From a virus: a stretch of DNA of 25,899 nt. The position numbers and the translations under genes were made by a program. The stretch lies in IMG/VR virus record IMGVR_UViG_3300021057_000032, positions 1 through 25,899 of that record; one strand, 5' to 3'. Under the pieces are notes generated by a model. That model did not search any database. It saw only the letters and a program-made list of their open reading frames with translations, and was not told where the DNA came from. This document shows, piece after piece, positions 5,443 through 24,544 of the stretch. Positions within the stretch are counted from its first letter, which is position 1; each line of letters starts with the position of its first letter.

Positions 5443-5445
5443 GGG

Positions 5446-5502
5446 TTGACGCCGTCGCTTGCGGCGCTCCGGCTATCGCTTGCGCGATGCAGGAAGAAGG
5501 GA
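5446..5502 (+). repeat. Two-hairpin element, copy 1 (upstream of the 75-aa gene)
   Basis: It starts TTGACGCC (5446-5453). Outer stem: GCC (5451-5453) with GGC (5471-5473), enclosing GTCGC/GCGGC (5454-5465, one G-U pair). Second hairpin: ATCGC-TTGC-GCGAT (5475-5488). A purine-rich ribosome binding site, AGGAAGAAGGGA, follows at 5491-5502, and ATG comes at 5510. Same layout as the copies at 8073, 15278 and 24491. Confidence 0.7.
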
Positions 5503-5509
5503 CAAACGA

Positions 5510-5737
5510 ATGGGTCGCCTCTACGACGTGTTCACATGGGCTGACGCCGGCGAGATGACCTTATCGCAGGGCCCTGCTTGGGAAGGTGGCGCTGAGCGCG
5601 GCGCTGCAGCCAGTCGCGCGCTTCAAGACAACCGCGACCAGTTCGTCGGCACCATGCTTTACAGCCATCATCAGGATGGCGCGCTGCGTCTAGAACTCTA
5701 CGCCCACAAGGCGCGCAAGATCGTCAACTTGCGGTGA
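5510..5737 (+). CDS. Hypothetical 75-aa protein
   Basis: This small soluble protein is not recognised. The frame is open further upstream to a TTG at 5459, but that region is the two-hairpin element. The ATG at 5510 follows AGGAAGAAGGGA at proper spacing and is the likely start. The sequence has an acidic/Gly/Ala middle (WEGGAERGAAASRALQDN) and a C-terminal LELYAHKARKIVNLR with net positive charge. It has no membrane segment, Cys cluster or signal peptide. It sits between the zinc-ribbon-like gene and the tail adaptor gene and may be an accessory insertion brought with the element. Confidence 0.55.
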   Translation: MGRLYDVFTWADAGEMTLSQGPAWEGGAERGAAASRALQDNRDQFVGTMLYSHHQDGALRLELYAHKARKIVNLR

Positions 5738-5748
5738 GGACACGATAG

Positions 5749-6432
5749 ATGGCAACGTCGGGAAGTTCTGACTACTCCCTCACCGCCCGCCAGGTGGTCG
5801 AATACGCCCTGCGCAAGATCAACGTCACCGCCAACGGCAACACCCCATCTTCGGAAGTGGCGGACGACGCGCTGATCGAGCTCAACGTCATGCTCAAGGA
5901 GTGGATGAAGTACGATTCCATCTGGCGGAAGACGCAGACGAGTTTGACCCCGACGGCCAACACGGCGTCGATCTCCATGTCGAGCGCCAATCCGTATCGG
6001 GTCATCGATGTGCGCTACCGCAATACGTCATCCATCGACCTGCCCATGAAGGAATTGAGTTACGAAGAATATTACGACATCCCCGAGAAGACGAGCACCG
6101 GCACCCCGACCTCCTGGATGTTCGACCCGCAGCGGGCTTCGAGCACTCTCTACTTCTGGCAGCTGTTGTCCTCGGTCACCACGGAAACCCTGCGCGTCAC
6201 CTACCAGCGCCGCTACGAGGACGTCGACGACCTGGCCAACGACCTCGACGTGCCGCAAGAGCACCTGGCGGTGGTCGGCTACAACTTGGCTTCAAGACTG
6301 GCCGACCGCTACGGCAAGTCGGGCCCCCACGTCGATCGCATCGTCGCCCGCGCCGAAAAGATGCTCGACGAAATTCTCGACGCCGACCGGCCGGAGGTGA
6401 TCCGCTTCGTGCCGGAGTCGCGCTATGGGTGA
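5749..6432 (+). CDS. P22 gp4-like tail accessory (head-to-tail adaptor) protein
   Basis: This 227-aa protein matches the pattern of the P22 gp4 tail accessory factor family. The N-terminal helical part is TARQVVEYALRKINVTANGNTPSSEVADDALIELNVMLKEWMKYDSIW, and the middle has the VIDVRYRN/ELSYEEYYDIP segment. The C-terminus is again helical and ends EVIRFVPESRYG. In P22, gp4 binds under the portal ring and starts closing the filled head; the next protein, gp10, stacks on it. That partner is encoded immediately downstream here with an 8-base overlap. Length is somewhat above P22 gp4 (about 166 aa). ATG 5749 has TGAGGA upstream. Confidence 0.8.
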   Translation: MATSGSSDYSLTARQVVEYALRKINVTANGNTPSSEVADDALIELNVMLKEWMKYDSIWRKTQTSLTPTANTASISMSSANPYRVIDVRYRNTSSIDLPMKELSYEEYYDIPEKTSTGTPTSWMFDPQRASSTLYFWQLLSSVTTETLRVTYQRRYEDVDDLANDLDVPQEHLAVVGYNLASRLADRYGKSGPHVDRIVARAEKMLDEILDADRPEVIRFVPESRYG

Positions 6433-7840
6433 GCTCATCCGTCTCGATTTCGGCGCCTCCTCCGATCCCGGGCGCTACGGTCCCGACACCGGCCCCATGC
6501 ACTGGAACTGCTTTGTCGAGCCGGTGAAGGAAGGCAAGCACCCGGCCCCCCTCTACACCAAGGACGGCTACGACCTGTTCGCCACCATCACCAACGGTGG
6601 GGCGTGTCGCGGCATGATTGAGATGGGGACGTTCGTCTATGTCGTGTCCGGCACGCTGCTGGTCAAGGTCGATGCCTCCGGCAGGGTCACCGAGATCGGC
6701 GGCATCCCCGGCACCGCGGCGGTGTCCATGGCCCACAACGACAAGCCGTCGTCGCGCCAGCTGGTCATTGCCACCGACGGCAACCGCTACGTGGTGGAAA
6801 ACGACGTCATTTCCAACATCACCGACGAGGACATCCCGCCACCGGTCTCCGTCGCCTACTTGAACCAGCGCATCGTCTATGCGGCCGCCGACGGCTCCAT
6901 CGTTCCCTCGGCCGTCGACGAGGCGACCGATGTCTCGGCCTTGGATGAGGTCAACGCCGAAGCCAAGCCCGACAACATCGTCGCCATCGTCGAGCATCTG
7001 CAGGAAATCTGGGCGCTGGGCACCGAGTCGACGCAGGTGTTCACCGACACCGGCAATTCCACCGCCCCGTTGCGGCCGAACCCCTCCATCGTCATCCCCA
7101 AGGGGTGTTTGGGGCAGGGCACCATCGCCCAGCTGGACACGGATCTGTTCTGGGTCGGGGACGACGCCGTCGTCTATCGGGCGGCCGGCGCGCAATTGCA
7201 GCGCCTCTCCCACCACGGCGTCGAAAAGGCCATCCGCGAGACGACGGACAAGGCGAGCATCGAGGCGCTCGCCTACCACTACGGCGGCCACGCCTTTTAT
7301 ACCCTGTCCGGGCCGACCTGGACCTGGGAGTTCAACCGCACCACCCAGTGCTGGGATCCGCGCTTTTCCTACGGACTGTCGCGCTGGCGCGCCTCCAAGG
7401 CGGTGGCCTTCGCCGGCAAGGTCATCATCGGCGACTATGAAGACAACACCCTCTATGAAATCTCGCGCGATGCGTACGACGAAGCGGGGAGCAACCTGAT
7501 CTGGCGGGCGCGCACCGCCCCGATGCACGCCTACCCCAACCAGATATCTTGCGACGAGCTCTATTTGGACTTTGTCATGGGCACCGGGATCGTCTCCTCC
7601 GACGCGCATGCGAATGCCCCGAAGGTTGGCCTGCGCTGGTCGGATGACGGGGGGCAATCTTGGTCCAACCAGTTGTTCCGCGATCTCGGCGCCGTCGGGG
7701 TGAAAACTGCGCGCGTCACCTACGCCGGCTTGGGCTCGACGCAGCCGACGGGGCGCATCTGGGAAGTGGAGTGCTCCTCCCCGGTTGTTCGCTGCCTGAT
7801 GTACGCCGCGGTGCGCGGCGACAAGCTCTTGGTGTCCTAA
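6425..7840 (+). CDS. P22 gp10-like packaged DNA stabilisation / tail hub protein
   Basis: At 471 aa it is almost exactly the length of P22 gp10 (472). Features include an N-terminal RLDFGASSDPGRYG, the region with KDGYDLFATITNGG, repeated beta-propeller-like strands (YVVSGTLLVKVDASGRVTEI, RQLVIATDGNRYVVEND), the ALGTESTQVFTDTGN segment and a C-terminal WSNQLFRDLGAVGVKTARV block. In P22, gp10 forms the hexameric hub that joins the gp4 ring to tailspikes and needle and keeps DNA in the head. The ATG overlaps the end of the upstream adaptor gene, with GGAG a few bases before it, consistent with coupled synthesis of the two tail-machine parts. Confidence 0.85.
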   Translation: MGELIRLDFGASSDPGRYGPDTGPMHWNCFVEPVKEGKHPAPLYTKDGYDLFATITNGGACRGMIEMGTFVYVVSGTLLVKVDASGRVTEIGGIPGTAAVSMAHNDKPSSRQLVIATDGNRYVVENDVISNITDEDIPPPVSVAYLNQRIVYAAADGSIVPSAVDEATDVSALDEVNAEAKPDNIVAIVEHLQEIWALGTESTQVFTDTGNSTAPLRPNPSIVIPKGCLGQGTIAQLDTDLFWVGDDAVVYRAAGAQLQRLSHHGVEKAIRETTDKASIEALAYHYGGHAFYTLSGPTWTWEFNRTTQCWDPRFSYGLSRWRASKAVAFAGKVIIGDYEDNTLYEISRDAYDEAGSNLIWRARTAPMHAYPNQISCDELYLDFVMGTGIVSSDAHANAPKVGLRWSDDGGQSWSNQLFRDLGAVGVKTARVTYAGLGSTQPTGRIWEVECSSPVVRCLMYAAVRGDKLLVS

Positions 7841-7841
7841 C

Positions 7842-8066: not shown

Positions 8067-8072
8067 TCAGGG

Positions 8073-8126
8073 TTGACGCCTCAGGCCACGGGCCTTTCGG
8101 CTATCGCCTACGGCGATAAAGGGGAA
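8073..8126 (+). repeat. Two-hairpin element, copy 2 (upstream of the GNAT gene)
   Basis: TTGACGCC (8073-8080). Outer stem GCC (8078-8080) with GGC (8099-8101), enclosing AGGCC-ACG-GGCCT (8083-8095). Second hairpin: perfect 7-bp TATCGCC-TAC-GGCGATA (8102-8118). AAAGGGGAA (8118-8126) is the ribosome binding site for ATG 8130. This is the cleanest copy. Confidence 0.75.
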
Positions 8127-8129
8127 CGC

Positions 8130-8546
8130 ATGATCCGCAGAGCCGCACTGTCCGATCTCACCCAATTGGCGGTGCTCGCCGAGGACTACTGCCGGCGCCG
8201 CAAGGAAGTCGCCTCCCGGGCGCGCATCCTGGCGACCCTGTCGGAACAGATCACGGACCTGCCGTTCTTTGTCGTTGAGAAGCAGGGCAAAGTGCTCGGA
8301 GGGCTTTCCCTGCACGTGATCGACCACCCCTTCTCGGGTCGTCCGATTGCAGGGAAAGCCCTTTGGTACACCAGCGAAGAGGGCAGGGGCTACGGCCTGT
8401 CGCTCCTCAGACATGCGGAAAAGTACGCCCGCTCCCTCGGGGCCCGGGAGATGTGGGTGGGGGTGGAAGACGAGCGGGCTTCGGCCCTGTTGCAGGCGCG
8501 GGGCTACGGCCTCGCCGAGCGCAAATTCAGAAAGGCTCTCAGCTAA
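8130..8546 (+). CDS. GNAT-family N-acetyltransferase
   Basis: This 138-aa protein has the GNAT order: IRRAALSDLTQLAVLAEDY at the N-terminus, strands FFVVEKQGKVLGGLSL, the beta4-alpha3 acetyl-CoA loop EEGRGYGLSLLRHAEKYARSLGA (R/G-x-G-x-G type, residues 84-106), and a C-terminal ASALLQARGYGLAERKF, a common GNAT ending. It would transfer an acetyl group from acetyl-CoA to an unknown amine. GNATs often occur as accessory genes in podovirus tail modules. I chose ATG 8130 rather than the longer frame from 8073, because 8073-8126 is the hairpin element and AAAGGGGAA stands at proper spacing. The stop abuts the next ATG. Confidence 0.82.
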   Translation: MIRRAALSDLTQLAVLAEDYCRRRKEVASRARILATLSEQITDLPFFVVEKQGKVLGGLSLHVIDHPFSGRPIAGKALWYTSEEGRGYGLSLLRHAEKYARSLGAREMWVGVEDERASALLQARGYGLAERKFRKALS

Positions 8547-9242: not shown

Positions 9243-9253
9243 GGGTCTAACGC

Positions 9254-10861: not shown

Positions 10862-13119
10862 TGGGGCAATATTCCGATCTGCTGCTTAAGACTCAAGCGC
10901 CGGCGCCCAGCACCCCGAAGACGTACTCGGATTTGCTGTTCGGCGGCGCGGCGCCGGCCGATCCGGCGCAACCAAGCGCTGAGGCCGATGCCGACACATG
11001 GCTGCATCGCCGCGGCCAGGACATCATGGGCAAGCACGACCCGCGCTTTAAGGGGCTGCCGGCTTTGACCGATGAGTTGGTGGCAGAGAAGTCGTTCGAT
11101 GTCACCCGTCCCATGGCCCTGTCGTCGCTGCTCAACTCCTCCGATGAGCAATTGCGGGACATCGCCAAGAGCCATTTGGGCGACCGTTTTATCAGCATGC
11201 AGACGGACGCCAACGGCTATACGGTGATGCGGTATAAGGGAAAGGACGGGACCGAAAAGGACGCCTACCTCAACCAACCCGGCCTGGACGTCAATGATCT
11301 GGGGCGTATCGGTACGGCGGCGGTTCCGTATGTGCTCAGCTCCACCGGCATTGGCAAGGCTACCAAGGGATTGGGATGGGGCCTGCAAGCCCTCGCGCAG
11401 TTCACGGGTGCGGGCGGGCAATCCATTCTCCAGGATCTGCTGCAGGCGCCGCTCGGCAGCGAGCAGGGGGTCGAGCTTCCCAAAGCCAGCACCGTTGCCG
11501 TTGCGGCGGGCGCCGTGCCACCCCTGCAAACAGCCATGGCCGCCCTGGCGCGGAAGTTCATCACGGTTCCCGCGTTGTTCGACGAGACCACCGGGACGCT
11601 GACGCCCAAGGGCGAAGCCGCCGCCAAGTCCGCCGGCGTCGATCCGGCTGAACTGAGCCGCGAAGCCCAGAAGGTGTTCGCCAAGACTTACGCCATGGAC
11701 CCCGACGCGGCACAAGCGGCGACGCGCGCCACCGTCGAGCCCTTCGGCATTCCCACATCAAAGGGGCAACTTTCCAAAGACCCTTATCTGCTGACGCAGG
11801 AGGAGGGCATGCGCCGCCGCCTCTATGGCGAGAACGCGCAGGACATTATGCGCGCCTTCGACGTTGAGCAGAGCCAGGCGGTGCGCGAAGCCGCACTAGG
11901 GTCAAAGCCGCAATCGGTGACGACCGCCATCGCCCCGCAGCGCCGCCCCGCCAGCGCCCCGCAGGACGCCAACCCCATGGTTCTGGGCCAATCGGTGCGC
12001 GATGGCACCAACGCCGCCCGCGAGGCGGCACGCGCCGCCGAAAACGAGGCCTGGGACAAGGTTGGGCCGCTGACCGCCACCAAGGACGCCCTCGACACGC
12101 TGCCGGCGTCCCTGGAAACGCGGCTGGGCGTCGACGTCATCGTCGATGCCGAGACGACTCCCGCTGCCGCCAAGATGGCGCAGGAAATGGACCGCTTCGT
12201 CTCCGGTGAGGCGCCGCAGCGCGTCGCCAATGTTTTAAGAAGCAACCCGGTGCAATCGGTCGATCTGATGCGCCGGCGCCTGCTGTCGATGTCCCGCGGG
12301 GCGCAAACGCCCTCCGACAAGCGGGCCGCCACTGCCCTCTATGACGGGTTCAACGATTGGATCGACGACGCGGCCAACAAGAACCTGCTGGCCGGCGATC
12401 CGGGCGCGGCGGCGCAATTGAAGGTGGCGCGCGGCTTCACCAAGGAGGTGCGCGCGTTGTTCGAGCCGTCCGTGGCCGGGCGCGCGTCTCCCGCCGGCCG
12501 CCGTCTGGCCGCCGTCATGGAGACGGCCGACAGCCCGGAAGGGGTGATCAATCAGTTGCTCGGCTCCACCGGTAGCCGCGGGGTCGACCAGGGGACGACC
12601 CAGGCGCTGACCAACTTGAAGCAAGCCTTGGAGCGCTTTGCGCCCGCCGACATCGCCAAATCCACATGGGACGACGTGCGCCTCGCCTACTGGGTGCGCC
12701 AGGTGCAGGGGCGCAACGGCGAAATGCTCGGGCCCACGGCGATCATGAATAATGTCAAGGCCGCGCTCGCCAATCAGCAGTCGGTGGTGCGCGCCCTCTA
12801 TGCGCCCGAGGAGGTCCGGCTGATCCGCCAGTTCGTGCAGGCCATGGAGACGATCTCCTTCAAGCCGCCGAATGCGTCGGGCAGTGGCTACACGACCGCG
12901 TCTTTCTTCAAGGACTGGGTCGGCAAATTCTTCGAAGCCTTCGGCCTCAAGTCCAAGCTGGCACAAACAGCGGTTGAACTCTCAGGACTGCCGAAGGCGC
13001 ACGGCACGGCGGCGGCGCGGGCCGCGGTTGATCAATCTGTCAAGCCTCGTCCACCCAACCTCGTGCCGGCGGTAACACCTCTTGGCGCGGCTTACGGAAA
13101 AGACGGTAACGCCCGCTGA
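10861..13119 (+). CDS. Large internal virion / DNA ejection protein (P22 gp16 position)
   Basis: This 752-aa protein is the largest in the ejection block. Its N-terminus carries two copies of a YSDLL motif (residues 4-8 and 22-26). Next come a domain with DVTRPMALSSLLNSSDEQLRDIAKSHLGD, a QTDANGYTVMRYKGKDG strand pair, and a Gly/Ala-rich hydrophobic segment (IGTAAVPYVLSSTGIGK to ALAQFTGAGGQS) that may touch membranes. A long helical, Ala/Arg-rich C-terminal region follows. No lysozyme or transglycosylase catalytic motif was found. Position and size match the third ejection protein of P22-like phages. Its last 80 bases overlap the 3' end of an opposite-strand membrane-protein gene. The stop is TGA at 13117-13119. 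Confidence 0.68.
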   Translation: MGQYSDLLLKTQAPAPSTPKTYSDLLFGGAAPADPAQPSAEADADTWLHRRGQDIMGKHDPRFKGLPALTDELVAEKSFDVTRPMALSSLLNSSDEQLRDIAKSHLGDRFISMQTDANGYTVMRYKGKDGTEKDAYLNQPGLDVNDLGRIGTAAVPYVLSSTGIGKATKGLGWGLQALAQFTGAGGQSILQDLLQAPLGSEQGVELPKASTVAVAAGAVPPLQTAMAALARKFITVPALFDETTGTLTPKGEAAAKSAGVDPAELSREAQKVFAKTYAMDPDAAQAATRATVEPFGIPTSKGQLSKDPYLLTQEEGMRRRLYGENAQDIMRAFDVEQSQAVREAALGSKPQSVTTAIAPQRRPASAPQDANPMVLGQSVRDGTNAAREAARAAENEAWDKVGPLTATKDALDTLPASLETRLGVDVIVDAETTPAAAKMAQEMDRFVSGEAPQRVANVLRSNPVQSVDLMRRRLLSMSRGAQTPSDKRAATALYDGFNDWIDDAANKNLLAGDPGAAAQLKVARGFTKEVRALFEPSVAGRASPAGRRLAAVMETADSPEGVINQLLGSTGSRGVDQGTTQALTNLKQALERFAPADIAKSTWDDVRLAYWVRQVQGRNGEMLGPTAIMNNVKAALANQQSVVRALYAPEEVRLIRQFVQAMETISFKPPNASGSGYTTASFFKDWVGKFFEAFGLKSKLAQTAVELSGLPKAHGTAAARAAVDQSVKPRPPNLVPAVTPLGAAYGKDGNAR

Positions 13120-13336: not shown

Positions 13337-13362
13337 TGGACTACCTCTTATAGGTCCCCCGC

Positions 13363-14889: not shown

Positions 14890-14943
14890 GGCGCTCTCCT
14901 TCACAGCCCCTGCAACCTAGCACGCCCTAAAAGCGGAGCCAAT

Positions 14944-15237
14944 ATGGCCATCGACAACTATCTGGCGTCCATTCGCCCAAGACGCGGGCAGGGCGAGGAA
15001 AACTATTTGCGCTTGGCGATGAGCGCGCCGTCCCGGCCAGCGCCAAGCCCGCGCGAGCGACTCTACCCAGTGCCGCCCTATACCCAAGAGCACGTCCCCT
15101 TCGATCAGGGCATCTTTAGACGCCCTGTGGCGCCCGGCACGCGCGGCCTCAACTTCGATAACAATGGCTATACTGAGGACGAGTGGTATCGCTACGTCTA
15201 CCCCGCGCTCATCGGGCGGCAGCGGTTGGACATCTAG
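14944..15237 (+). CDS. Hypothetical 97-aa protein
   Basis: This soluble protein is unrecognised. It is rich in Pro, Arg and Tyr (IRPRRGQGEENYLRL, SAPSRPAPSPRERLYPVPPY), with a C-terminal block NFDNNGYTEDEWYRYVYPALIGRQRLDI that is mostly aromatic and acidic. GCGGAG 6 bases before ATG 14944 is a fair ribosome binding site. It lies between the ejection proteins and the fibre gene and may be a minor virion or fibre-attachment protein. A minus-strand ORF over the same bases looks like its shadow. Confidence 0.6.
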   Translation: MAIDNYLASIRPRRGQGEENYLRLAMSAPSRPAPSPRERLYPVPPYTQEHVPFDQGIFRRPVAPGTRGLNFDNNGYTEDEWYRYVYPALIGRQRLDI

Positions 15238-15277
15238 CCACGCTCCCGAATAACACGCCACCCTCCGCGCAAGCCTA

Positions 15278-15328
15278 CCCCTTACATCGCGAAGCGATAG
15301 GCGAAAGCGCCCGGCGCTGAGCCGTCAA
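15278..15328 (-). repeat. Two-hairpin element, copy on the minus strand, no gene behind it
   Basis: On the minus strand it begins TTGACGGC (15328-15321). The outer stem is GGC (15323-15321) with GCC (15302-15300), the mirror of GCC/GGC in the other copies. It encloses AGCGC-CGG-GCGCT (15318-15306). The second hairpin ATCGC-TTC-GCGAT (15298-15286) is followed by TAAGGGG (15284-15278). No convincing minus-strand gene follows. The rest of the 155-base gap (15238-15392) holds only a possible GAGG ribosome site for the fibre gene. Confidence 0.72.
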
Positions 15329-15392
15329 TACCTGATCCACCCCCAAGACCCCGCTCCTAACCCATTCTCTGTCCAAGAGGATCTGATCCCCC

Positions 15393-18300
15393 GTGCCCAT
15401 CCAGAACCTCGACTTCGGCACCAGTGCCAAGAACGACGGCGACACGCTCGAAGACGCCTTCGACAAGATCCAGGACAATTTCGTCGCCCTCTATGCCGCC
15501 GACGGCACGGTGACGCACGCCATCACCGATGTGGCGAGTGCCGCGACCTGCGACATCGGCGCGGCGGCGACCGACCGAGTACGCATCACCGGCACGACGA
15601 CCATCACCTCGCTGGGCACCTCGGCCTCAAAGCTTCGCTTCGTGCACTTCGCGGCGGCGCTGACCCTCACCCACAACGCCACGAGCCTCATCTGCATCGG
15701 CGGGGCGAGCATCGTCACGGTCGCCGGCGACGTGTGCATCCTCTCCTCGGATGCCTCCGGCAACTGGCGCATGCTGTCGTTCAACCGCGGCGCCTCGCTG
15801 GCGACGGGTGACTTTTCCGGTCCCGCCTCGTCGACCGACAACGCCATCGTGCGGTTCGATTCGACCACGGGCAAGATCGGGCAGAACTCCGGCGTCATCA
15901 TCTCCGACACCAACGACATCACCGGGTACGATGCGACCAACGACGGCAACCCGGAATGGCGCATCGGCGCGGCGGACGCCGAAGAGCTGCACGTGCAGAC
16001 GGTCTATGACTCAGGCGCCCAGACCCTCAACTACGTCCTCTTCACCACTGATGTCGCCAGCGCCACGGCCGACAAGGGGCTCTACCGGTTCAACGTCGAC
16101 GGCACCGACATCCTCGACATCGACGACGGGGGGATCAACTTCGCGGCGTCGAAGGGGATTTCCATTGCCGGCACCGACATCATTACCGATGCCGCCGGGA
16201 CCGCCACCCTCTCCAACATCGACGCGCTCGACGCCACCACCGAGGCGACGATCGAGGCGGCGATCGATACCCTAGCGAACCTCACCTCGGTGCAGGGGCA
16301 GACGCTGACGCTGGCCGGTGCCTTCATCACCTCGGGCGCCAACTCGCTCACCCTGACGACGACGGGCGCCACCAACGTCACCCTGCCGACCACCGGCACG
16401 CTGGCCACTTTGGCGGGCACGGAGACCTTGTCCAACAAGGTGCTGACGCTGCCGCAGATCAACGACACGAGCAGCGACCACCAGTATATTTTCGCCGTCT
16501 CGGAACTGGCCGCCGACCGCACCGTCACGTTGCCCCTGCTCGCCGGCAACGACACGTTTGTGTTCGAGGCCTTCACGCAGACGCTGACCAACAAGACGCT
16601 GGCTCTGGGCTCCAACACGGTCTCTGGCACCATCGCCCAGTTCAACACCGCAGTGACGGACGCCGACTTTGCCACCTTGGCGGGCTCGGAGACGCTGACC
16701 AACAAGGTCCTCACCTCGCCGGTCCTCACCACCCCACAGATCAACGACACCTCGGCCGACCATCAGTACGTGTTCGCCGTGTCGGAACTGGCGGCGGATC
16801 GCACTGTCACCCTGCCGTTGCTCGCCGCCGCCGACACCTTCGTATTTGAAGCCCACACCGCGACCCTCACCAACAAGACGGTCGACCTTACCTCCAACAC
16901 CTTGGTCGGCTCGGTGACCGAGTTCAACACCGCGCTCGAGAGCGCCGACTTCGGCACCTGGGCGGCGGGGGCGACCGACAACGCCGCGGTGCGTTCGGAC
17001 GGGACGGGGGGTCTGCTGCAGACCTCGGCGCTGATCATCGGCGACACCGCCGACCTGACGGCCTACGACGCCACCAACGACGGCAACCCCATCTTCGCCT
17101 TCGGCGCTTCTGCGGCGGAACGGCTAACGATTACCCCGACCTATGACACGGGGGCACAGACCCTCAGTCATGTGATCTTTGCCACCGACGTGGCGAGTGC
17201 GACCGCCGACAAGGGCCTGTTCCGCTTCTCGCCCGACGGCGTGTCGATCCTGGACATCGACGACGGCGGCATCAACTTCGCCGCCAGTAAGGGCATCTCG
17301 ATTGCCGGCACCGACATTCTCACCGACAGTGCCGGCACGGCCACCCTCTCCAACATCGATGCCTTGGACGCGACGACCGAAGCCACCATCGAAGCCGCCA
17401 TTGATACGCTGGCCAACCTCACGAGCATTCAGGGCCTGACGGTCACCTACGCCGACGCTGGCTTCGACGTGCTGCGCGGCTGGGACGACAGCGCCGCCGC
17501 CAATAAAAACCTGCTCCTCGCCGATATCCTGACCGAGGCGGCGCCGGCGGCGGGCGACTTTGTCATCATCTACGGCGCCGAAGGCGATGTCCGCAAAGCC
17601 AACTGGTCGAGCCTCCCCGGTGCCGGCGCCGGCATTTCCAACGTGGTGGAGGATACCAGCCCCGAGCTCGGCGGCGATCTGGAGTCGAACAACTTCGACA
17701 TCAAGATGGAGCAGTTCTCGGCCGATGCGGTGGCGCCCGACATTTACTTCCAGAAATCCCGCAACGCCGCCATCGGCTCACACACGATTGTGCAGGATGG
17801 TGACGATCTCGGCAAAATCATCTTCCAGGGGTCGAACGGCACCGGCTTTGATAGTGCCGCACAAATCCGCGGCGAGGTCGACGGCACGCCAGGCGCCGCC
17901 ACCGATATGCCGGGGCGGCTGGTGTTTTCGACGACAGCGGATGGGTCCGCCACACTCACTGATCGCGTGATCCTCGACAGCGCCGGCGCCTTCAAGCCGG
18001 TGACCACCGACGCCGTGTCGCTCGGCACCAGCGCCTTGAATTTCTCCGATCTGTTCCTCGACAGCGGCGCCGTCATCAACTTCGATAGCGGCGACGTGAC
18101 CATCACCCATTCGGCCAACGCCCTGGCCATTGCCGGCGGCGTCACCGCGCTGGATGCCGCCTCCACCGTGGGCGGCGCCGTCATTAAAGCGGCCGGCGTC
18201 GAGACCATCTGGATTCCAGCCGGGGCGATGAAGCCCAAGGTGACCAACGGCGCCGGGCAGAGCACCTATGACTCCGGCACCAACGACGTGACCATCGCCA

Positions 18301-18707
18301 CGATAGACTTCGACACCACCACCCAGGAGTACGCCCACACCCTGCCCATGGGCATGCCCAAGTCGTGGAACGAGTCGACGGTGACGGCGGTGTTCTACTG
18401 GACCAACACCGGGGGCGCCTCGACCGAAACCGTGCGCTGGTCGATTGCCGGTGCGGCGATCTCCGACGACGACACCTTGAACGCCACCATGGGGACAGCC
18501 GTCACCGTCGATGACACGTGGCTGGCGCAAAACGATTTGCACATCTCTGCCGCCACCTCGGCAGTGACCATCGGCGGCACCCCGGCCGAAAACGATCTGG
18601 TGATTTTTGAGATTTCCCGCGTCACCGGCTCCGACAACATGGCGGGCGACGCAAGATTGATCGGCGTCAAGATCCTGATGACGACGAACGCCAGCAACGA
18701 CGCCTAA
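15393..18707 (+). CDS. Large tail fibre protein with internal repeats
   Basis: This 1104-aa protein is probably a receptor-binding fibre. The N-terminus NLDFGTSAKNDGDTLEDAFDKIQDNFVAL is the usual opening of many phage fibres (FGT..NDG..L.DAFDKIN.NF), which attaches to the tail. The body is Thr/Ala/Asp/Gly-rich beta structure with long internal duplications, including two near-identical 150-residue blocks and tandem LAG.ETL.NK.L repeats, typical of a long fibrous shaft. The C-terminal 200 residues (from about 900) are non-repetitive (WIPAGAMKPKVTNGAG, then STETVRWSIAGAAIS) and would form the tip. GTG 15393 has GAGG about 12 bases upstream; that spacing is long, so the start is less certain. 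No chaperone or peptidase domain was seen. Confidence 0.82.
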   Translation: MPIQNLDFGTSAKNDGDTLEDAFDKIQDNFVALYAADGTVTHAITDVASAATCDIGAAATDRVRITGTTTITSLGTSASKLRFVHFAAALTLTHNATSLICIGGASIVTVAGDVCILSSDASGNWRMLSFNRGASLATGDFSGPASSTDNAIVRFDSTTGKIGQNSGVIISDTNDITGYDATNDGNPEWRIGAADAEELHVQTVYDSGAQTLNYVLFTTDVASATADKGLYRFNVDGTDILDIDDGGINFAASKGISIAGTDIITDAAGTATLSNIDALDATTEATIEAAIDTLANLTSVQGQTLTLAGAFITSGANSLTLTTTGATNVTLPTTGTLATLAGTETLSNKVLTLPQINDTSSDHQYIFAVSELAADRTVTLPLLAGNDTFVFEAFTQTLTNKTLALGSNTVSGTIAQFNTAVTDADFATLAGSETLTNKVLTSPVLTTPQINDTSADHQYVFAVSELAADRTVTLPLLAAADTFVFEAHTATLTNKTVDLTSNTLVGSVTEFNTALESADFGTWAAGATDNAAVRSDGTGGLLQTSALIIGDTADLTAYDATNDGNPIFAFGASAAERLTITPTYDTGAQTLSHVIFATDVASATADKGLFRFSPDGVSILDIDDGGINFAASKGISIAGTDILTDSAGTATLSNIDALDATTEATIEAAIDTLANLTSIQGLTVTYADAGFDVLRGWDDSAAANKNLLLADILTEAAPAAGDFVIIYGAEGDVRKANWSSLPGAGAGISNVVEDTSPELGGDLESNNFDIKMEQFSADAVAPDIYFQKSRNAAIGSHTIVQDGDDLGKIIFQGSNGTGFDSAAQIRGEVDGTPGAATDMPGRLVFSTTADGSATLTDRVILDSAGAFKPVTTDAVSLGTSALNFSDLFLDSGAVINFDSGDVTITHSANALAIAGGVTALDAASTVGGAVIKAAGVETIWIPAGAMKPKVTNGAGQSTYDSGTNDVTIATIDFDTTTQEYAHTLPMGMPKSWNESTVTAVFYWTNTGGASTETVRWSIAGAAISDDDTLNATMGTAVTVDDTWLAQNDLHISAATSAVTIGGTPAENDLVIFEISRVTGSDNMAGDARLIGVKILMTTNASNDA
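15834..16298 (+). repeat. Fibre long repeat, copy A (155 codons)
   Basis: It matches copy B (16974-17435) 1,140 bases downstream, with one codon difference in length. Both run from TDNA-VR through YDATNDGNP, ADKGL-RF and GINFAASKGISIAGTDI to IEAAIDTLANLTS-QG. The last third is almost identical at the protein level, while many third codon positions differ (for example GCGTCG versus GCCAGT for Ala-Ser). Confidence 0.85.
16410..16676 (+). repeat. Fibre short tandem repeat, unit 1 (89 codons)
   Basis: It begins at LAGTETLSNKVL and contains PQINDTSSDHQYIFAVSEL, AADRTVTLPLLAGNDTFVFEA and TLTNKTLALGSNT. Unit 2 follows directly at 16677-16958 with the same order of motifs. Confidence 0.8.
16677..16958 (+). 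repeat. Fibre short tandem repeat, unit 2 (94 codons)
   Basis: LAGSETLTNKVL, PQINDTSADHQYVFAVSEL and TLTNKTVDLTSNT repeat unit 1. A five-residue insertion (a second VLT-type turn before PQIND) accounts for the extra 15 bases. These units fill the space between the two long repeats. Confidence 0.8.
16974..17435 (+). repeat. Fibre long repeat, copy B (154 codons)
   Basis: Partner of 15834-16298. The protein sequence is best kept from DILDIDDGGINFAASKG to the LANLTS-QG end. The first half is more diverged (for example AVRSDGTGGLLQTS versus IVRFDSTTGKIGQNS). Confidence 0.85.
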
Positions 18708-18724
18708 CGAGGGACGCACCGCCA

Positions 18725-19183: not shown

Positions 19184-19893
19184 TGGGATTTATACTCACA
19201 CACCTTGCGGGGTTCGGGGCGGGCGGCGCGGGGTTTGACGGCAACGACAGCTTCACCAAACTGCTGCTGCACATGGACGGGGCCGACGCCTCGACGACGT
19301 TCACGGATTCATCGTCAGGCAACAAAACCGGCACCGTCACCGGCAACGCCCAGATCGACACGGCGCAATCGAAGTTTGGTGGGGCGGCGGGGCTGTTCGA
19401 CGGGGCCGGGGATTACGTCAGTTTTGCCGACCACGTCGATTTTGAGTTCGGCACCGAGTCGTTCACCATCGACTTCTGGATCAGACCTGCCGATACCGCG
19501 GCCGGGCTGCGCGCTGTTCTCATCAAGCGGGAGGGGGCGCTCACCGCCCCCTTCGCCGTCTACCAGGACGGCACGACGCTCAGGGCCTACGCCTCGTCGG
19601 CGGGGGCCAGCTTCGACATCCTCAATGCGGTCTCCATGGGGACCGTCGCCGCGGGCACCTGGAGCCACCATGCCTATGTGCGCAACGGCAACGATTTTAT
19701 GCTGTTCAAGGACGGGACGCAGGTCGGCGCCACCGTCACCTCCTCGTCCACCATCTGGGACAACACCGAGGCCCTGCGCGTCGGCTCCGATGGCTCTTTC
19801 CACTACAACGGCCACCTGGACGAATTGCGCATCTCCAAGGGCGCCGCCCGGTGGACGGCGAACTTCACGCCGCCCGGCGCGCCTTACAGTTAA
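19183..19893 (+). CDS. LamG/concanavalin-A-like lectin domain virion protein
   Basis: At 236 aa, residues about 24-230 form one LamG-like jelly-roll: KLLLHMDGADASTTFTDSSSG, AQIDTAQSKFGGAAGLFDGAGDYVSF, ESFTIDFWIRP, GTWSHHAYVRNGNDFMLFKDGTQVG and the closing HLDELRISKGAARWTANFTPP. This closing motif is typical of phage LamG proteins. The domain binds glycans in many proteins, so a role in reading host surface sugar is likely. The N-terminus is Gly/Phe-rich (LAGFGAGGAGFDG), possibly for attachment to another tail part. ATG overlaps the previous stop by one base. Confidence 0.85.
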   Translation: MGFILTHLAGFGAGGAGFDGNDSFTKLLLHMDGADASTTFTDSSSGNKTGTVTGNAQIDTAQSKFGGAAGLFDGAGDYVSFADHVDFEFGTESFTIDFWIRPADTAAGLRAVLIKREGALTAPFAVYQDGTTLRAYASSAGASFDILNAVSMGTVAAGTWSHHAYVRNGNDFMLFKDGTQVGATVTSSSTIWDNTEALRVGSDGSFHYNGHLDELRISKGAARWTANFTPPGAPYS

Positions 19894-19903
19894 GGCGGCG
19901 GCA

Positions 19904-20033
19904 CATGACCCAGCACGGCACCCGCGCGGTGCGGCGCATCGTTGATTTGCCGACCGTTGCCACGGGTAGGGGCGTCCAGTCCGCGACAAGCAACAAACGC
20001 TTTATCTATGGGGTGATCTCTTATGGCGGATAA
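19904..20033 (+). CDS. Micro-ORF, 42 aa, between the LamG protein and the second fibre
   Basis: ATG 19904 opens MTQHGTRAVRRIVDLPTVAT and the ORF ends FIYGVISYGG with TAA at 20031-20033, overlapping the next gene's ATG (20023) by 11 bases. AAGGCGG upstream is a weak ribosome site. The basic N-terminus and aromatic end look like a real small protein, and the tight fit between neighbours supports it, but I know no homologue. The frame extends upstream to 19851, probably as a shadow. It could instead be a spacer. Confidence 0.45.
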
Positions 20034-21582
20034 TGCTCTGGTCCGTTACGCCGGCGATTGGATCTTCTATCAGGGCGCCGCCGCCGCCGGGGCGCTGCTC
20101 TACGTCTACGACGCCGGGACCACGAACCTTGCCAGCATCTTCACCGACAAGGACCTTCTGGTCGCTTCCGCCAACCCGGTGACGGCGGATTCGGGCGGCT
20201 TGATGCCCTTCGCCTACCGGGGAACATCCGCCTACAAGGTGGTGCTCAAAACCTCTTCCGGCACGACCATCGACACCGAGGACAACCTCCCCGGGGCTCT
20301 CAACACCTCCACCTTTACCGCCGCCACCTTTGCCAAGTCGGATGCCGACGTTGCCGCCAAGACCTCCGATTACACGATGGTCTCGGGCGACCTCGGCACC
20401 ATCCTCAATGTCAACCCAACCTCGGCTTCGGTCACCATCACTTTGATGAGTGCGGTCACCGCCACCAACGGGCGCGGCATCGAGATCCGCCACACCGGGA
20501 CCGCCAATCAGGTGAATATTTCCACCGTCTCGGGGCAGACCATCGACGGGTTCTCGTCCAAATCACTGCTCGGGCAGCACGAAAGCCTCGAGCTGGTGTC
20601 CGATGGCGCCAACTGGCACGTCAAGAGCGACGCCAACCGCACCATTTATGCCGGCACCGTCACGCCACAAGGCTATCTGACACTCACCAGCGGCACGCCC
20701 ATCATCACTTCCAACGTCCTCTCGGCTACCGCCGTCTATTACACCCCGTTTACCGGCAACCTGGTCCCGCTCTATGACGGCACGCGGTTCGTCAATTACG
20801 AGTTCGCCGAACTCACTCTGAGCCTCGCCTCGCAACACGCCACCAACACGATCTACGACGTGTTCGCCTGGCTGGAGAGCGGCGTGGTGACCATCGGCAC
20901 CGGGCCGGCATGGACAACATCGACGGCCGGCGCTGGCGCCCGGGGGACCGGGGCGGGCACGACGCAATTGACCCGCACCAAGGGCCTGCATCTCAACACC
21001 GTGGCGATGACGGCGCGCAACTCCTCGACGACCTATTCGGTGGGAGCGCTGCGGGCGACGTACCTCGGCTCCATCTTCATCGACGGCACAGCCGGACAGG
21101 TGACCTGCCACGTGGCCTATGGGCAGTCGCGCAAGTGGGGCGTGTGGAACGCCTACAACCGGCGTCCGATTGAGCTTCTGGCCGGCGATGCCACGGCAAG
21201 CTGGACCTACAACGGCGGCACCATCCGCCAGTCGCGCGCCGACGCCACCAACAAGCTGACGACGTTCTGCGGTCTGAGTGATGCGCCGATCACCGCCCGC
21301 TTCCGGCAGCGCATCGCGCCGCAGTCCGCTAACACCGGAACCGGCGAAATTGGCATCGGCTGGAACTCAACCTCGGCCTTCAGCGGCTCGACCAGCTACG
21401 CCGCCCAGGACGTGTCAGGAGGGGTCGTGGTGAAAATTTTTATCGCGCCGACAGCCGAGTACCTCGTCCGCGACGGCATCGGCATCAATGACGTTAACGC
21501 CCTCGAGAACGGCAACACTAGCTCGGTCGTTTTCACCGGCACCGAGGCCAGCATGCGCCTCACTGCCAAGTGGGACGGGTAG
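20023..21582 (+). CDS. Second tail fibre / receptor-binding protein
   Basis: At 519 aa, the N-terminal 90 residues carry a common fibre and spike head module: GAAAAGALLYVYDAGTTNLASIFTDKDLL, then NPVTADSGGLMPFAYRGTSAYKVVLK, which docks fibres to the tail. A Gly/Thr-rich central part (about 110-215) precedes a C-terminal domain that begins around YLTLTSGTPI and contains NTIYDVFAWLESGVVTIGTGPAW and KWGVWNAYNRRPIELLAGD. That C-terminal block looks like a conserved phage fibre tip domain and is the likely host-recognition part. No enzyme motif (depolymerase, hydrolase) was recognised. No clear Shine-Dalgarno sequence precedes ATG 20023 within the micro-ORF, so coupling to it is possible. Confidence 0.78.
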   Translation: MADNALVRYAGDWIFYQGAAAAGALLYVYDAGTTNLASIFTDKDLLVASANPVTADSGGLMPFAYRGTSAYKVVLKTSSGTTIDTEDNLPGALNTSTFTAATFAKSDADVAAKTSDYTMVSGDLGTILNVNPTSASVTITLMSAVTATNGRGIEIRHTGTANQVNISTVSGQTIDGFSSKSLLGQHESLELVSDGANWHVKSDANRTIYAGTVTPQGYLTLTSGTPIITSNVLSATAVYYTPFTGNLVPLYDGTRFVNYEFAELTLSLASQHATNTIYDVFAWLESGVVTIGTGPAWTTSTAGAGARGTGAGTTQLTRTKGLHLNTVAMTARNSSTTYSVGALRATYLGSIFIDGTAGQVTCHVAYGQSRKWGVWNAYNRRPIELLAGDATASWTYNGGTIRQSRADATNKLTTFCGLSDAPITARFRQRIAPQSANTGTGEIGIGWNSTSAFSGSTSYAAQDVSGGVVVKIFIAPTAEYLVRDGIGINDVNALENGNTSSVVFTGTEASMRLTAKWDG

Positions 21583-21705
21583 GGTAAACGCAGTCCGGGG
21601 CCAGCCTTGCCTCCCAAGCCGGTGGGGCCATTTCCATCACGGCGACGCGCTCCGCGGGCGTGTCCGATCCCATCGACGCGGATGTAGCTAGAAACAGGAA
21701 GCAAT

Positions 21706-22689
21706 ATGGCCTTGAAAATCGAGGGCGACCGCCTCAAGGGCGTGCCGTTCGTGCCGGCGCACGCCTCGGGCAAGAGCATGCCGAAGCCGACGCTCATCGT
21801 CTTGCACGACACCGCGGATCGCGAAAAACCGCAGGACACGGTCAACTGGTTCAAGTCGTCGGCCTGCACGACATCGGCACATTTCGTGGTCGAACGCGAC
21901 GGGTCGATCACCCAGATGGTCGAATGCGATCAGATCGCCTTCCACGCCGGCAAGTCGTCATTCAAAGGCCGCTCTGGGTGCAACACGTTTTCCATCGGCA
22001 TCGAGATCGATAACCCGGGCGGCCTCGACAAAAACGGCCGCGCCTACTTCCACAAGGACAAGAAGGGCCGCCCCGTCGCGCCCGGCTTCGACCTCGACCG
22101 GCTGAAGCACGTCAAGACCAAAGAGCACGGCGACGCCCTGTGGTTGCCCTACACGGACGCGCAGGTAAAGACAGTCATCAACCTGTGCCGGGCGCTCGTC
22201 GCCGCCTATCCCTCGATCACCGATATTGCCACCCACTGGCTCATTTCCCCGGGGCGCAAGGTCGACACCAATCCGCTGTTTCCGCTGGATGGGGTGCGCG
22301 CCGCCGTGTTCGAGCCGGCCAAGCGCAAGCCATCGGTGCCAGCGGAGCCCGTTGCGCCGGTCGAGGCACCGCCACCCATTGCCGCGGTCGCGGAGCCACC
22401 CGTCGCGGCCGCCTTGGTCACCACCTCGCGCAAGGCGAAGACGCTCAGCCGGCTCACCAAAGCAATGCACGCCATTTGGATCGGGCTCACGCTGGAGTCG
22501 ATCCTTGAGTACCTCGGCTTCGCCAAATCGACGATCGATCAGATTTCCCAGTTCGTCGAAAGCAACGCGAAGGTGTTGGCGATCACCGCCGCCATCCTCG
22601 GCCTCCTGGTGGTGAAATACATCTACGGCCTGATGCAGGAAGACGCCGAGGAAGGCCGCTACGTGCCGAGCGGCGAAAAAACCGCCTAA
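21706..22689 (+). CDS. Endolysin: N-acetylmuramoyl-L-alanine amidase (Amidase_2) with C-terminal membrane segment
   Basis: At 327 aa, this enzyme cleaves the bond between N-acetylmuramic acid and L-alanine in peptidoglycan. Zinc ligands of the Amidase_2 fold are visible: H34 in IVLHDTAD, H177 and D187 in THWLISPGRKVDTNP. E100 (IGIEID) and K185 occupy catalytic positions, and AFHAG (79-82) is a family signature. After the domain (about residue 200) comes a Pro/Ala linker (KRKPSVPAEPVAPVEAPPP), then a helical region (258-283) and a hydrophobic segment 288-309 (KVLAITAAILGLLVVKYIYG) that could cross the membrane, with a charged tail. Free endolysins usually lack a C-terminal anchor. AGGAAG precedes ATG 21706. 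The 123-base gap before it holds only this site. Confidence 0.88.
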   Translation: MALKIEGDRLKGVPFVPAHASGKSMPKPTLIVLHDTADREKPQDTVNWFKSSACTTSAHFVVERDGSITQMVECDQIAFHAGKSSFKGRSGCNTFSIGIEIDNPGGLDKNGRAYFHKDKKGRPVAPGFDLDRLKHVKTKEHGDALWLPYTDAQVKTVINLCRALVAAYPSITDIATHWLISPGRKVDTNPLFPLDGVRAAVFEPAKRKPSVPAEPVAPVEAPPPIAAVAEPPVAAALVTTSRKAKTLSRLTKAMHAIWIGLTLESILEYLGFAKSTIDQISQFVESNAKVLAITAAILGLLVVKYIYGLMQEDAEEGRYVPSGEKTA

Positions 22690-22700
22690 GGAGAACCGAC

Positions 22701-23075: not shown

Positions 23076-23076
23076 C

Positions 23077-23370
23077 ATGCTTCCCTGGTGGGGCTATTGG
23101 GTCGCCGGCGGGCTGTTGGTGACCGGCATCTTCTGGGCGGGCGATCAGTATGGCTGGAGCGCCCGCCAGTACGCCAAATGCAAGACGGTGACCGCCCGCC
23201 GCAACGCCGCCATTGCTTCCGTCAACCGCTCGGAAGAGGTCAAGCACGCCGAGGAGGCGGAGAAGCGCGCCGCGGCCCGCATCGCTTTCAGCAAGTGTCC
23301 GGGGGTGCAGTCCTGCGTGCTCACCGCCGACACCGCGGCGTGCCTCAACACTCTGCGGGTGACGCCATGA
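23077..23370 (+). CDS. Probable inner-membrane spanin (i-spanin, Rz-like)
   Basis: This 97-aa protein has an N-terminal membrane helix, residues 4-21 (WWGYWVAGGLLVTGIFWA). Its outside part is charged and helical (RRNAAIASVNRSEEVKHAEEAEKRAAARIAF), typical of Rz coiled coils. C-terminal Cys residues (KCPGVQSCVLTADTAACL) are less usual. The stop overlaps a second small ORF with a candidate lipobox by four bases, as in i-spanin/o-spanin pairs, which fuse inner and outer membranes at the end of lysis in Gram-negative hosts. Order within the cassette (endolysin, membrane protein, Rz/Rz1) supports it. Confidence 0.65.
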   Translation: MLPWWGYWVAGGLLVTGIFWAGDQYGWSARQYAKCKTVTARRNAAIASVNRSEEVKHAEEAEKRAAARIAFSKCPGVQSCVLTADTAACLNTLRVTP

Positions 23371-23597
23371 GGGCATTATTCATTTTTTCGATAGTGCTCC
23401 CCGGCGGCTGCGCCACGCTGGGGGAACTCGACCCGCCGCCGCGCTGGTGCCTCGAGGCCGGGAGTATGGGCGACGCGCTCAAGGCCGGCGACGACCTCGT
23501 GCAAAAGGCCGCCGACAGCCAACAGAAGCTCGAGGCGGAATTCGCCAAGAACCGGTGCCTGCGCCGCTGGGTGAAAGCGGCCTCCGGAAAGAACTGA
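23367..23597 (+). CDS. Probable outer-membrane lipoprotein spanin (o-spanin, Rz1-like)
   Basis: This 76-aa protein starts at ATG 23367, within the end of the Rz-like gene. The N-terminus RALFIFSIVLPGGC is short, basic and hydrophobic, and Cys15 sits where a lipidated Cys would be. The box is weak because Pro occupies position -3 rather than Leu/Val/Ala. The mature part has a Pro pair (ELDPPPRWC), a helical region (GDALKAGDDLVQKAADSQQKLEAEF) and two further Cys residues. Its position and overlap with the upstream gene are the best evidence for the spanin role. If the box is not used, it would be a secreted protein. Confidence 0.55.
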   Translation: MRALFIFSIVLPGGCATLGELDPPPRWCLEAGSMGDALKAGDDLVQKAADSQQKLEAEFAKNRCLRRWVKAASGKN

Positions 23598-23653
23598 AGC
23601 CACCGCGCTAGTGCCTGCGTCCCACATTTCTCTCATGCGCAAAGGACGCAACA

Positions 23654-23851
23654 ATGCTGGAACTCGTCGCCACCGTCTGCCTCGCCATCGGCGCTTGCAA
23701 GGACGTTTCGTTGAACGTGTCCGACGCGATGACCCCAATGCAGTGCCTGTTGAGCGCGCAGATCGAAGCCGCCAAGTGGCACATCGAGCACCCCGGCTGG
23801 CGCATCGCCAAGCTCACCTGTGGACGCGTCGGTCGTTACGCCCGTGCATGA
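23654..23851 (+). CDS. Small exported Cys-containing protein of the lysis region
   Basis: This 65-aa protein has AAAGGA before ATG 23654. The N-terminus MLELVATVCLAIGACKDVSL is hydrophobic and probably a signal peptide or membrane segment. The rest contains TPMQCLLSAQIEAAKWHIEHPGWRIAKLTC. It resembles a family of short phage and alphaproteobacterial hypothetical proteins that I recall with an opening like MLELVATVC, a MQC motif and a W..KHP.W..K...C ending, so the pattern is real although unnamed. Four Cys residues suggest disulphides in the periplasm. No function is known. Confidence 0.62.
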   Translation: MLELVATVCLAIGACKDVSLNVSDAMTPMQCLLSAQIEAAKWHIEHPGWRIAKLTCGRVGRYARA

Positions 23852-23868
23852 GGTGAGGGACATGTTGA

Positions 23869-24147
23869 ATGGGCGAACTCCACATGTTTCCGCCGCATGG
23901 AAGTCAGCACCCCGAGGCGAAGATCGCCCGACTGGAGGCACACGTCTTTCATCTGGCGCAGAAACAAAAAGACCTGGACGCGGAGCACCGCGAGCTCAAG
24001 AAGGACCGCGAAGCGCTGCTGCGCTACATTCTGTGGCGATTGGTTATCTTCTTGGGGTTGCTGATTGGTGCTCTTGCATCCAACGCCTCGACCGAAGGCT
24101 CTCTGAAAAAGGCTCTCTCAAGCGCTTTGATCGGGTTGTTTGGGTGA
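23869..24147 (+). CDS. Coiled-coil plus single-TM protein, possible holin (XhlA-like layout)
   Basis: This 92-aa protein has a helical, heptad-like region at residues 15-50 (KIARLEAHVFHLAQKQKDLDAEHRELKKDREAL). A membrane helix follows at about 53-70 (YILWRLVIFLGLLIGALA), then a short amphipathic end (EGSLKKALSSALIGLFG). This order recalls XhlA-type holin partners and other class III-like holins. The GAGG at 23855-23858 is well placed for ATG 23869, and an internal Met at residue 6 is less likely. It is the last plus-strand gene of the cassette. A 14-codon hydrophobic ORF in another frame over its end is not supported. Confidence 0.58.
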   Translation: MGELHMFPPHGSQHPEAKIARLEAHVFHLAQKQKDLDAEHRELKKDREALLRYILWRLVIFLGLLIGALASNASTEGSLKKALSSALIGLFG

Positions 24148-24194
24148 TGATGTTTGTCGCCGTGGTGCTGATCGCGCTGCGGCACTGATTTGGG

Positions 24195-24214
24195 TTGACG
24201 CGGTTCGGCTATCG
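24195..24214 (+). repeat. Degenerate copy of the two-hairpin element
   Basis: TTGACG (24195-24200) is followed after 3 bases by TTCGGCTATCG, so the first hairpin is missing and the second is broken (the downstream bases do not repair it). It lies in the + orientation on the far side of the minus-strand Cys-rich gene from the complete minus-strand copy at 24491-24544, forming an inverted pair. Confidence 0.6.
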
Positions 24215-24239
24215 AGCCTCACCGCTGCGCTGCGCGCGC

Positions 24240-24485
24240 TCAGAACGGAATTCTGTCTCTGGTTTCCGGTCCCTCTTCACCGCAGCAGAAGCATTCCCCG
24301 CCAAGGACATCACGGTAGTCCGCTCGCTCCCGACACCGGCTGCACCAAGTCCAGTGGTCTTCAGGGAAGGTGGAAACGACAGACCAGTCGTGCCCCTTCA
24401 GTCGGCAAATAGTTGCCCGCTTGAACAGGTCAAAGAGAGAGCGCCGCTGAATAGCGCCGTGCTCGTAGTCTGCTGAGATGCGCAT
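24240..24485 (-). CDS. Cys-rich (zinc-ribbon-like) 81-aa accessory protein
   Basis: It starts at ATG 24485-24483, 7 bases after AAGGGA supplied by the two-hairpin element. A GTG two codons earlier is too close to that site. It is soluble and basic at the N-terminus (RRSLFDLFKRATICRLKGHDW). The Cys pattern CSRC then CFCC, with two more nearby, resembles a small zinc-binding fold, with the WSVVSTFPEDHWTWC segment between. This could be a DNA- or RNA-binding regulator or anti-host protein. It runs opposite to the late genes and is bracketed by copies of the hairpin element. Confidence 0.62.
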   Translation of the reverse strand: MRISADYEHGAIQRRSLFDLFKRATICRLKGHDWSVVSTFPEDHWTWCSRCRERADYRDVLGGECFCCGEEGPETRDRIPF

Positions 24486-24490
24486 CTCCA

Positions 24491-24544
24491 CTTCCCTTCA
24501 TTCGCGTAGCGAATAGCCGAAGCAGCCGTGCTGCGAGGCGTCAA
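24491..24544 (-). repeat. Two-hairpin element, minus-strand copy (upstream of the Cys-rich gene)
   Basis: TTGACGCC (24544-24537). Outer stem GCC/GGC (24539-24537 with 24518-24516), enclosing GCAGC-ACG-GCTGC (24534-24522). Second hairpin ATTCGC-TAC-GCGAAT (24514-24500, with TATTCGC extending it by a T-G pair). GAAGGGAAG (24499-24491) is the ribosome site. Upstream, TATGAT (24550-24545) with a TGG before it could be a -10 box, placing the transcript start at the element. Confidence 0.75.

Follow-up and report, generated by a model that had tools for sequence, protein, structure and literature searches.

The window analysed here is the whole 25,899-nucleotide stretch at positions 1–25,899 of the IMG/VR virus record IMGVR_UViG_3300021057_000032, and it carries several copies of a short element, a TTGAC tag followed by two hairpins, at the borders of small genes. 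Four A-type copies (W1 to W4) each show TTGAC, an outer stem GCC/GGC (GGC/GCC in W3), an inner hairpin and a second hairpin of the TATCGC type; a further copy belongs to a second subtype, R. The elements and their neighbouring genes are as follows.

5446–5488, plus strand: element W1, A type (TTGAC 5446–5450, hairpin 1 5451–5473, hairpin 2 5474–5488)
5510–5737, plus strand: 75-aa accessory gene after W1, without a Pfam or PHROGs match
8073–8118, plus strand: element W2, A type (TTGAC, hairpin 1 8078–8101, hairpin 2 8102–8118)
8130–8546, plus strand: GNAT acetyltransferase gene after W2 (PF00583, 2.7 × 10⁻⁹)
14944–15237, plus strand: 97-aa gene preceding W3, no family match
15286–15328, minus strand: element W3, A type with swapped outer stem, antisense behind the 97-aa gene
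24195–24239, plus strand: R-type element (TTGAC 24195–24199, hairpin 1 24200–24225, T, hairpin 2 GCGCTGCGCGC 24227–24237)
24240–24491, minus strand: 83-aa Cys-rich gene between W4 and the R-type end, its stop codon abutting the latter
24500–24544, minus strand: element W4, A type, facing the R-type element

W1 is followed by a ribosome site and the ATG at 5510, W2 by AGGGG and the ATG at 8130, and W4 by a ribosome site and the start of the Cys-rich gene. The first-pass annotation of this sequence had described a recurrent two-hairpin element with paired base changes; its four full copies read as claimed, and a strict descriptor recovered exactly these four. Its placement of three copies at the starts of small genes holds for those at 5446, 8073 and 24544. 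The copy at 15328 lies behind a gene; no partner element was found on the 5′ side of that gene. Moreover, the supposedly degenerate copy at 24195–24214 turned out to be a complete R-type element (TTGAC, GCGG-TTC-[GGCT ATCG AGCC]-TCA-CCGC, T, GCGC-TGC-GCGC) with close copies in other phages, including one at 38652–38700 of contig G002 (93.9% identity over 49 nt). This element faces W4 in inverted orientation, and the two bound the Cys-rich gene, one of the enclosed genes, which are small and mostly without a family. Behind the 75-aa gene, GCGGTGAGGACACGATAG at 5725–5750 resembles the R-type core GCGGTGAGGCTCGATAG and is possibly the worn right end of the W1 insert.

Architecture, occurrence and pairing of the element

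The element is 45–75 nt long. Hairpin 1 has a 3-bp outer stem, an internal loop (tandem G-A on the bottom strand), an inner stem of ~5 bp and a small loop. Hairpin 2 differs by type, being TATCGC..GCGATG in A and CTGCGCTGCGCGCGC in R; the B type has a third hairpin. On the top strand the tag is TTGAC or GTGAC; the bottom strand, where it reads GTCAA, runs 5′-hairpin 2, hairpin 1, GTCAA-3′ and ends in ..GSCGTCAA. At 10983–11250 of contig G004 (locus L192), before a 66-aa gene, lies a mosaic of an R-type half and the third hairpin of a B-type element.

Our strict descriptor demanded [TG]TGAC, Watson-Crick pairing in both a 3-bp outer stem and the inner stem, then a T and at least 4 bp in the second stem. 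Beyond its four matches in the window, it found nothing when the window was reversed and averaged 0.00 matches over 20 dinucleotide shuffles. Further copies were located by pattern scans of IMG/VR, and the contigs were then read whole or nearly whole: G001 (80 kb), G002 (40 kb), G003 (4.9 kb), G004 (27 kb), G005 (53 kb), G006 (44 kb), G007 (57 kb), G008 (110 kb), G009 (24 kb) and G010 (5.9 kb). Nearly all element-bearing contigs are metagenomic fragments. Three pairs are related (the window and G003, G002 and G006, G008 and G009), and one close and one distant relative of the window phage were found; most element-bearing phages have few genes in common. Over the 11 contigs, the descriptor yielded 37 matches, one of which (G008 715) looks like chance, versus 1, 1, 0, 0 and 0 with five other anchor pentamers. 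In total, ~56 copies are known over 11 viral contigs, 15 of them on G004. R1, a covariance model built on hairpin 1, gave 33–51 bits for most clear copies in which this hairpin has its full length, and short or divergent variants scored down to ~13. Contigs left out of model building reached 51.5, 50.3, 49.6 and 49.4 bits, and the ceiling at preselected loci without a real copy was 27.3 bits for viral and 18.4 bits for bacterial sequences.

The first-pass annotation had named an exact match to a known Rfam family as an outcome that would refute its claim; neither the window nor a single copy matched any family above the gathering threshold. Of 94 stretches picked out of 84,980 species genomes by a strict pattern scan, the real ones were confined to QZKR01000092.1, a 52.7-kb phage contig in a Myxococcales metagenome-assembled genome that is also an IMG/VR virus; R1 matched no other contig of that genome. 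No copy was found in 385 alphaproteobacterial genomes under stricter filters run without a positive control, and searches of limited sensitivity revealed no bacterial chromosome with a high copy number. Comparison with cultivated phages by blastn gave no recognisable copy. The matches it listed in Aurantimonas, Caulobacter, Gordonia, Mycobacterium and other phages had 16–56% query cover at E values of at least 0.01 and were rejected; three that we inspected lie inside or across annotated genes. The literature searched, which did not extend to subscription papers and preprints, contained no description of the element. Judging from the bacterial and viral searches, the element appears to be restricted to phages. 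Its recurrence between genes of phages that are otherwise unrelated, frequently as two facing copies with one small gene inside, suggests an undescribed virus-specific family of mobile gene-border elements.

Base pairing is conserved while stem sequence varies. Among 13 aligned hairpin 1 sequences of near-equal length, all 104 of 104 cells were Watson-Crick pairs, with 33 double changes and no single-side change, and slid alignment controls were 29–60% paired. Covariation, which the first-pass annotation had proposed as a check, is strong by these pair counts and slid controls, which stand in place of R-scape. The other support it had asked for, recurrence upstream of small accessory genes in unrelated phages, was likewise found. 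Since the 13 hairpins had been picked by length, we added a free-stem test in which the pattern TTGACGSCTCN{13,14}TTCGSCTR leaves the inner stem unspecified. It found 22 sites that fall into two equal groups: in 11 the inner pairs are Watson-Crick at 5/5 and the outer position is paired, in the other 11 only 0–2/5 are, and no site lies between. The 11 fully paired sites contained no G-U pair, and in 48 curated copies G-U made up 9/404 pairs on the top strand (2.2%) and 3/400 on the bottom strand (0.75%). That only double changes occur, all of them Watson-Crick, points to constraint at the DNA level.

Strand features lead in the same direction. On the bottom strand, the internal loop is GAA/GA in 13, GA/GAA in 6 and GA/GA in 4 of the 48 copies (23 together), and hairpin 2 often has a GTA, GAA, GCA, GGA or GCAA loop closed by C-G. 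Loops of the cGNAg and cGNNAg kind are stable in DNA. The mean folding energy under RNA parameters was −13.2 kcal/mol for the bottom strand versus −12.0 kcal/mol for the top strand (48 copies). Folded singly with DNA parameters, the window copies had z values of −0.6 to −2.9, the copy at 5446 being the weakest, and the top-strand DNA minimum of the copy at 15328 divides hairpin 1 differently. Both the G-A internal loop and the GNA/GNNA loops of hairpin 2 sit on the strand antisense to the genes that the element precedes. Rarity of G-U on both strands, together with stable features on the antisense strand, favours folded DNA over mRNA.

Gene borders, facing pairs and exchange between phages

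Copies in sense orientation usually follow a stop codon and lead through hairpin 1 and hairpin 2 to a ribosome site and a start codon, with about 10–37 nt between hairpin 2 and the start codon. The element often provides both the stop codon of the upstream gene and the ribosome site of the downstream gene; in four descriptor copies and in both insertions on G003, the TGA within TTGAC is itself the stop codon of the preceding gene. The element is not confined to leader positions, for it also lies behind genes, inverted or antisense, and R-type ends are often found inverted behind genes, with some preceding genes. Copies occur at gene junctions either singly or as facing pairs around 1–3 small genes. 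Of neighbours within 1.2 kb, 15/20 face each other with TTGAC outermost (P = 3.8 × 10⁻⁶ for random orientation), and three such pairs, of 105, 110 and 163 bp, enclose nothing or next to nothing.

Related contigs differ in their elements. Between the window and G003 (58–62% identity), three junctions differ: W1 and the 75-aa gene (insert 5443–5748) are entirely missing at the same junction in G003. Two genes of G003 whose counterparts in the window overlap are separated by one element, and the gene that follows has an empty facing pair behind it. In G009, a facing pair surrounds a gene at a place where G008 carries another gene and no elements, the main aligned blocks of these two contigs being 90–98% identical in nucleotides. 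The left and right ends of G002 and G006 are orthologous but enclose different gene cargo; their left-end stems are wholly different with pairing kept, and their right ends are nearly identical. In G002, two exact copies of a 27-nt element piece, CTTCGGCTATTCGCTTCGCGAATGAAG, also flank an additional gene. Among contigs treated as unrelated, elements account for ~1.1% of bases but for 36/103 nucleotide matches, and the best element matches are mostly 82–95% identical versus 58–77% for the strongest shared-gene matches. These comparisons show presence/absence and exchange, without base-exact ends or target duplication.

Other features of these contigs were recorded as well. Six element-bearing contigs encode an HNH-like protein family with the motifs CxCG..SCGC and YGGRGI.VC.RW, whose only Pfam match is a weak one to PVL_ORF50, below the cut-off; no link between this family and the element was shown. 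Compared with G008, G009 has one member as an additional ~700-bp insert. The family lies at these loci.

G001: 19490–20242 and 21702–22361
G004: 17681–18619 and 20593–21327
G005: 4792–5448
G007: 34519–35205
G008: 16478–17323
G009: 15200–16378

The window itself carries an Endonuclease VII-type HNH gene at 1692–2387 (PF02945, 5.5 × 10⁻²²) and, not far from it, a GIY-YIG-like open reading frame at 2–601, recognised by eye; the two are probably free-standing homing-type endonucleases in the phage structural region. Endonuclease VII was rejected as a common mobiliser, given that among the element contigs the window alone has it and that 1/42 controls has it too. Long diverged internal repeats (300 nt at 74% and 245 nt at 71%) lie at 15881–17440 in the 1104-aa tail-fibre-like protein.

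A folded-DNA reading and its alternatives

We favour, at a probability of about 0.52, a phage-restricted, non-autonomous folded-DNA element resembling repetitive extragenic palindromic (REP) sequences and their REPIN doublets, moved in trans, bounding accessory genes and carrying a stop codon and a ribosome site. Free stem sequence with strict pairing, facing orientation, one-strand features regardless of transcription, and exchange between unrelated phages together fit a mobile or recombination unit of folded DNA better than an mRNA leader. In such a mechanism, the bottom strand would fold when single-stranded, and a trans-acting enzyme, probably a transposase or recombinase of single-strand DNA, would recognise it. 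The element could then spread alone, as an empty pair of about 105–165 bp, or as a pair with accessory genes. Insertion at gene borders would be tolerated because the element ends and restarts translation, and this tolerance can explain its leader-like position.

A more specific proposal, which we put forward tentatively and regard as unlikely in full, is a phage-to-phage cassette system in which 1–3 small accessory genes between inverted folded-strand ends, recognised by shape by a putative single-strand DNA recombinase, would move among unrelated phages to stop/start junctions. It is an old question how morons, the small accessory genes of phages, get into such densely packed genomes without harming their neighbours. 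A stop codon, a ribosome site and recognisable folded ends, all delivered by the element, would offer them a concrete route that can be tested.

Several points weigh against the folded-DNA element. Movement was not observed at nucleotide resolution: the informative relatives are too diverged or differ by gene swap, and none showed a clean empty site or a target duplication. The Y1/HUH transposase PF01797 was absent from eight contigs; an enzyme from the host is possible. Copies within one phage differ in their stems, unlike freshly copied REPs, and many single copies are placed exactly as leaders, before ribosome sites. In addition, the list of ~56 copies, which merges the descriptor, the covariance model and reading by eye, is partly hand-curated, and gene calls were crude, some copies overlapping called genes.

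The main rival is an RNA leader, an intercistronic element whose hairpins, lying after the stop codon and before the ribosome site, would shield the mRNA, serve as an RNase cleavage site, or insulate and restart translation of small genes, which would take the element along with them. We give it a modest, minority chance. It accounts for the typical order of stop codon, hairpins, ribosome site and ATG and for the spacing to the start codon; a junction copy on G002 that lacks TTGAC retains both hairpins, the upstream stop codon forming a loop, and, with hairpins on both strands, 3′ copies could protect mRNA as well. Both orientations, antisense copies and the facing-pair bias argue against it, as do the near-absence of G-U, the fact that the purine-rich loop features fall on the antisense strand of the leader genes, and the conserved TTGAC outermost at both ends of a pair. 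The earlier alternative of a leader or portable module is accordingly well supported in its second half and less so in its first. An RNA role may nevertheless coexist with the folded-DNA role.

A regulatory repeat bound by a common host or phage protein, similar to the start-associated sequences (SAS) and extended SAS (ESAS) of mycobacteriophages or to stoperators, appears improbable. Its position at gene starts and its inverted repeats, both shared with SAS/ESAS (PMC3203893), and the constant TTGAC and R-type hairpin 2 would suit it, but the stems vary freely with pairing kept, which duplex-binding sites do not require. Moreover, SAS/ESAS are described there for one phage cluster and mostly one orientation, whereas the element occurs in unrelated phages and in facing pairs. 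Still less probable are gene cassettes with attC-like sites, folded single-strand sites on which a tyrosine recombinase acts, each cassette holding one small gene: the conserved structure with varying stem sequence, the 1–3 small genes between ends and the variable cargo at one site (G002/G006) are compatible with them, but the element ends are inverted and not direct, no integron R boxes were seen by eye, and no conserved integrase was noticed on the contigs, for which no systematic search was made.

Promoters or intrinsic terminators, suggested by the likeness of TTGAC to a −35 box and by hairpins at gene ends, are very improbable and contradicted by the observations: the distance from TTGAC to TAT ranges over 14–27 nt and follows hairpin 1 length, which excludes a sigma70 promoter as the first-pass annotation had anticipated from the spacing, promoter-like sites are not over-represented, and no element coincides with any of the promoter-like or terminator-like sites listed. 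Chance similarity of GC-rich hairpins, conceivable at a GC content of 60–64%, is contradicted by the anchor, shuffle and held-out controls and has next to no chance of being correct.

Comparison with known systems

The element bears the closest likeness to REP, REPIN and bacterial interspersed mosaic elements (BIMEs), which are tagged by GTAG, are associated with REP-associated tyrosine transposases (RAYTs) and have inverted doublets as the common unit, with spacings of 71 and 110 bp in SBW25 (PMC3116915, PMC6006769). It is likewise an extragenic imperfect palindrome in the 20–65 nt class, with an unpaired tag at one end, located between and behind genes; inverted doublets are over-represented (15/20 neighbouring pairs), and the G004 mosaic is like those of BIMEs. 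It differs in its tag (TTGAC/GTCAA, not GTAG or GTGG), in its hairpin number (two or three) and tandem G-A loop, in residing in phages and not chromosomes, in stems that vary between copies and in enclosing accessory genes; no cognate RAYT/Y1 transposase (PF01797) was found on 8 element contigs. CGTC-REPs are single hairpins with 8–9 bp stems starting with A/T pairs, 4–5 nt loops and CCA tails; they are chromosomal, mostly in Alphaproteobacteria, with no dedicated transposase known, and phages are not mentioned (PMC3733652). The element likewise forms inverted dimers, and its bottom strand, ending in ..GSCGTCAA, has a CGTC-like tag at the hairpin foot, but in this foot, GSC-GTCAA, the C is paired, so that CGTC is not unpaired, and the stem starts with G-C.

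SAS and ESAS share with the element a position directly upstream of start codons in phages. In the portion of the source available, SAS is a fixed 13-bp sequence of cluster K mycobacteriophages in nearly always one orientation, about half of the sites have an inverted repeat, ESAS is a 17-bp sequence with a subcluster-specific consensus, and no facing pairs around genes are noted (PMC3203893). The SAS sequence GGGATAGGAGCCC, found directly before start codons, was absent from the element copies read. Organelle double-hairpin and repetitive hairpin elements are, in the accessible parts of two accounts, short hairpin-forming repeats called mobile or invading in compact genomes (PMC5910586, PMC2800124); they are mitochondrial, and their likeness to the phage element is one of description.

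Integron attC sites are folded-strand sites with variable stems that bound single genes, with ends in direct order. The element differs from them in its inverted ends, with no R boxes seen by eye and no integron integrase noticed outside a systematic search. As for transposons with terminal inverted repeats and miniature inverted-repeat transposable elements, presence/absence of the element was seen between relatives that were too diverged for base-exact ends or differed by gene swap. Since several defining features of the compared families are missing, we regard the element as working like REP/REPIN without being a member; a REP-like family confined to phages would broaden a class that has been described for the chromosomes of bacteria.

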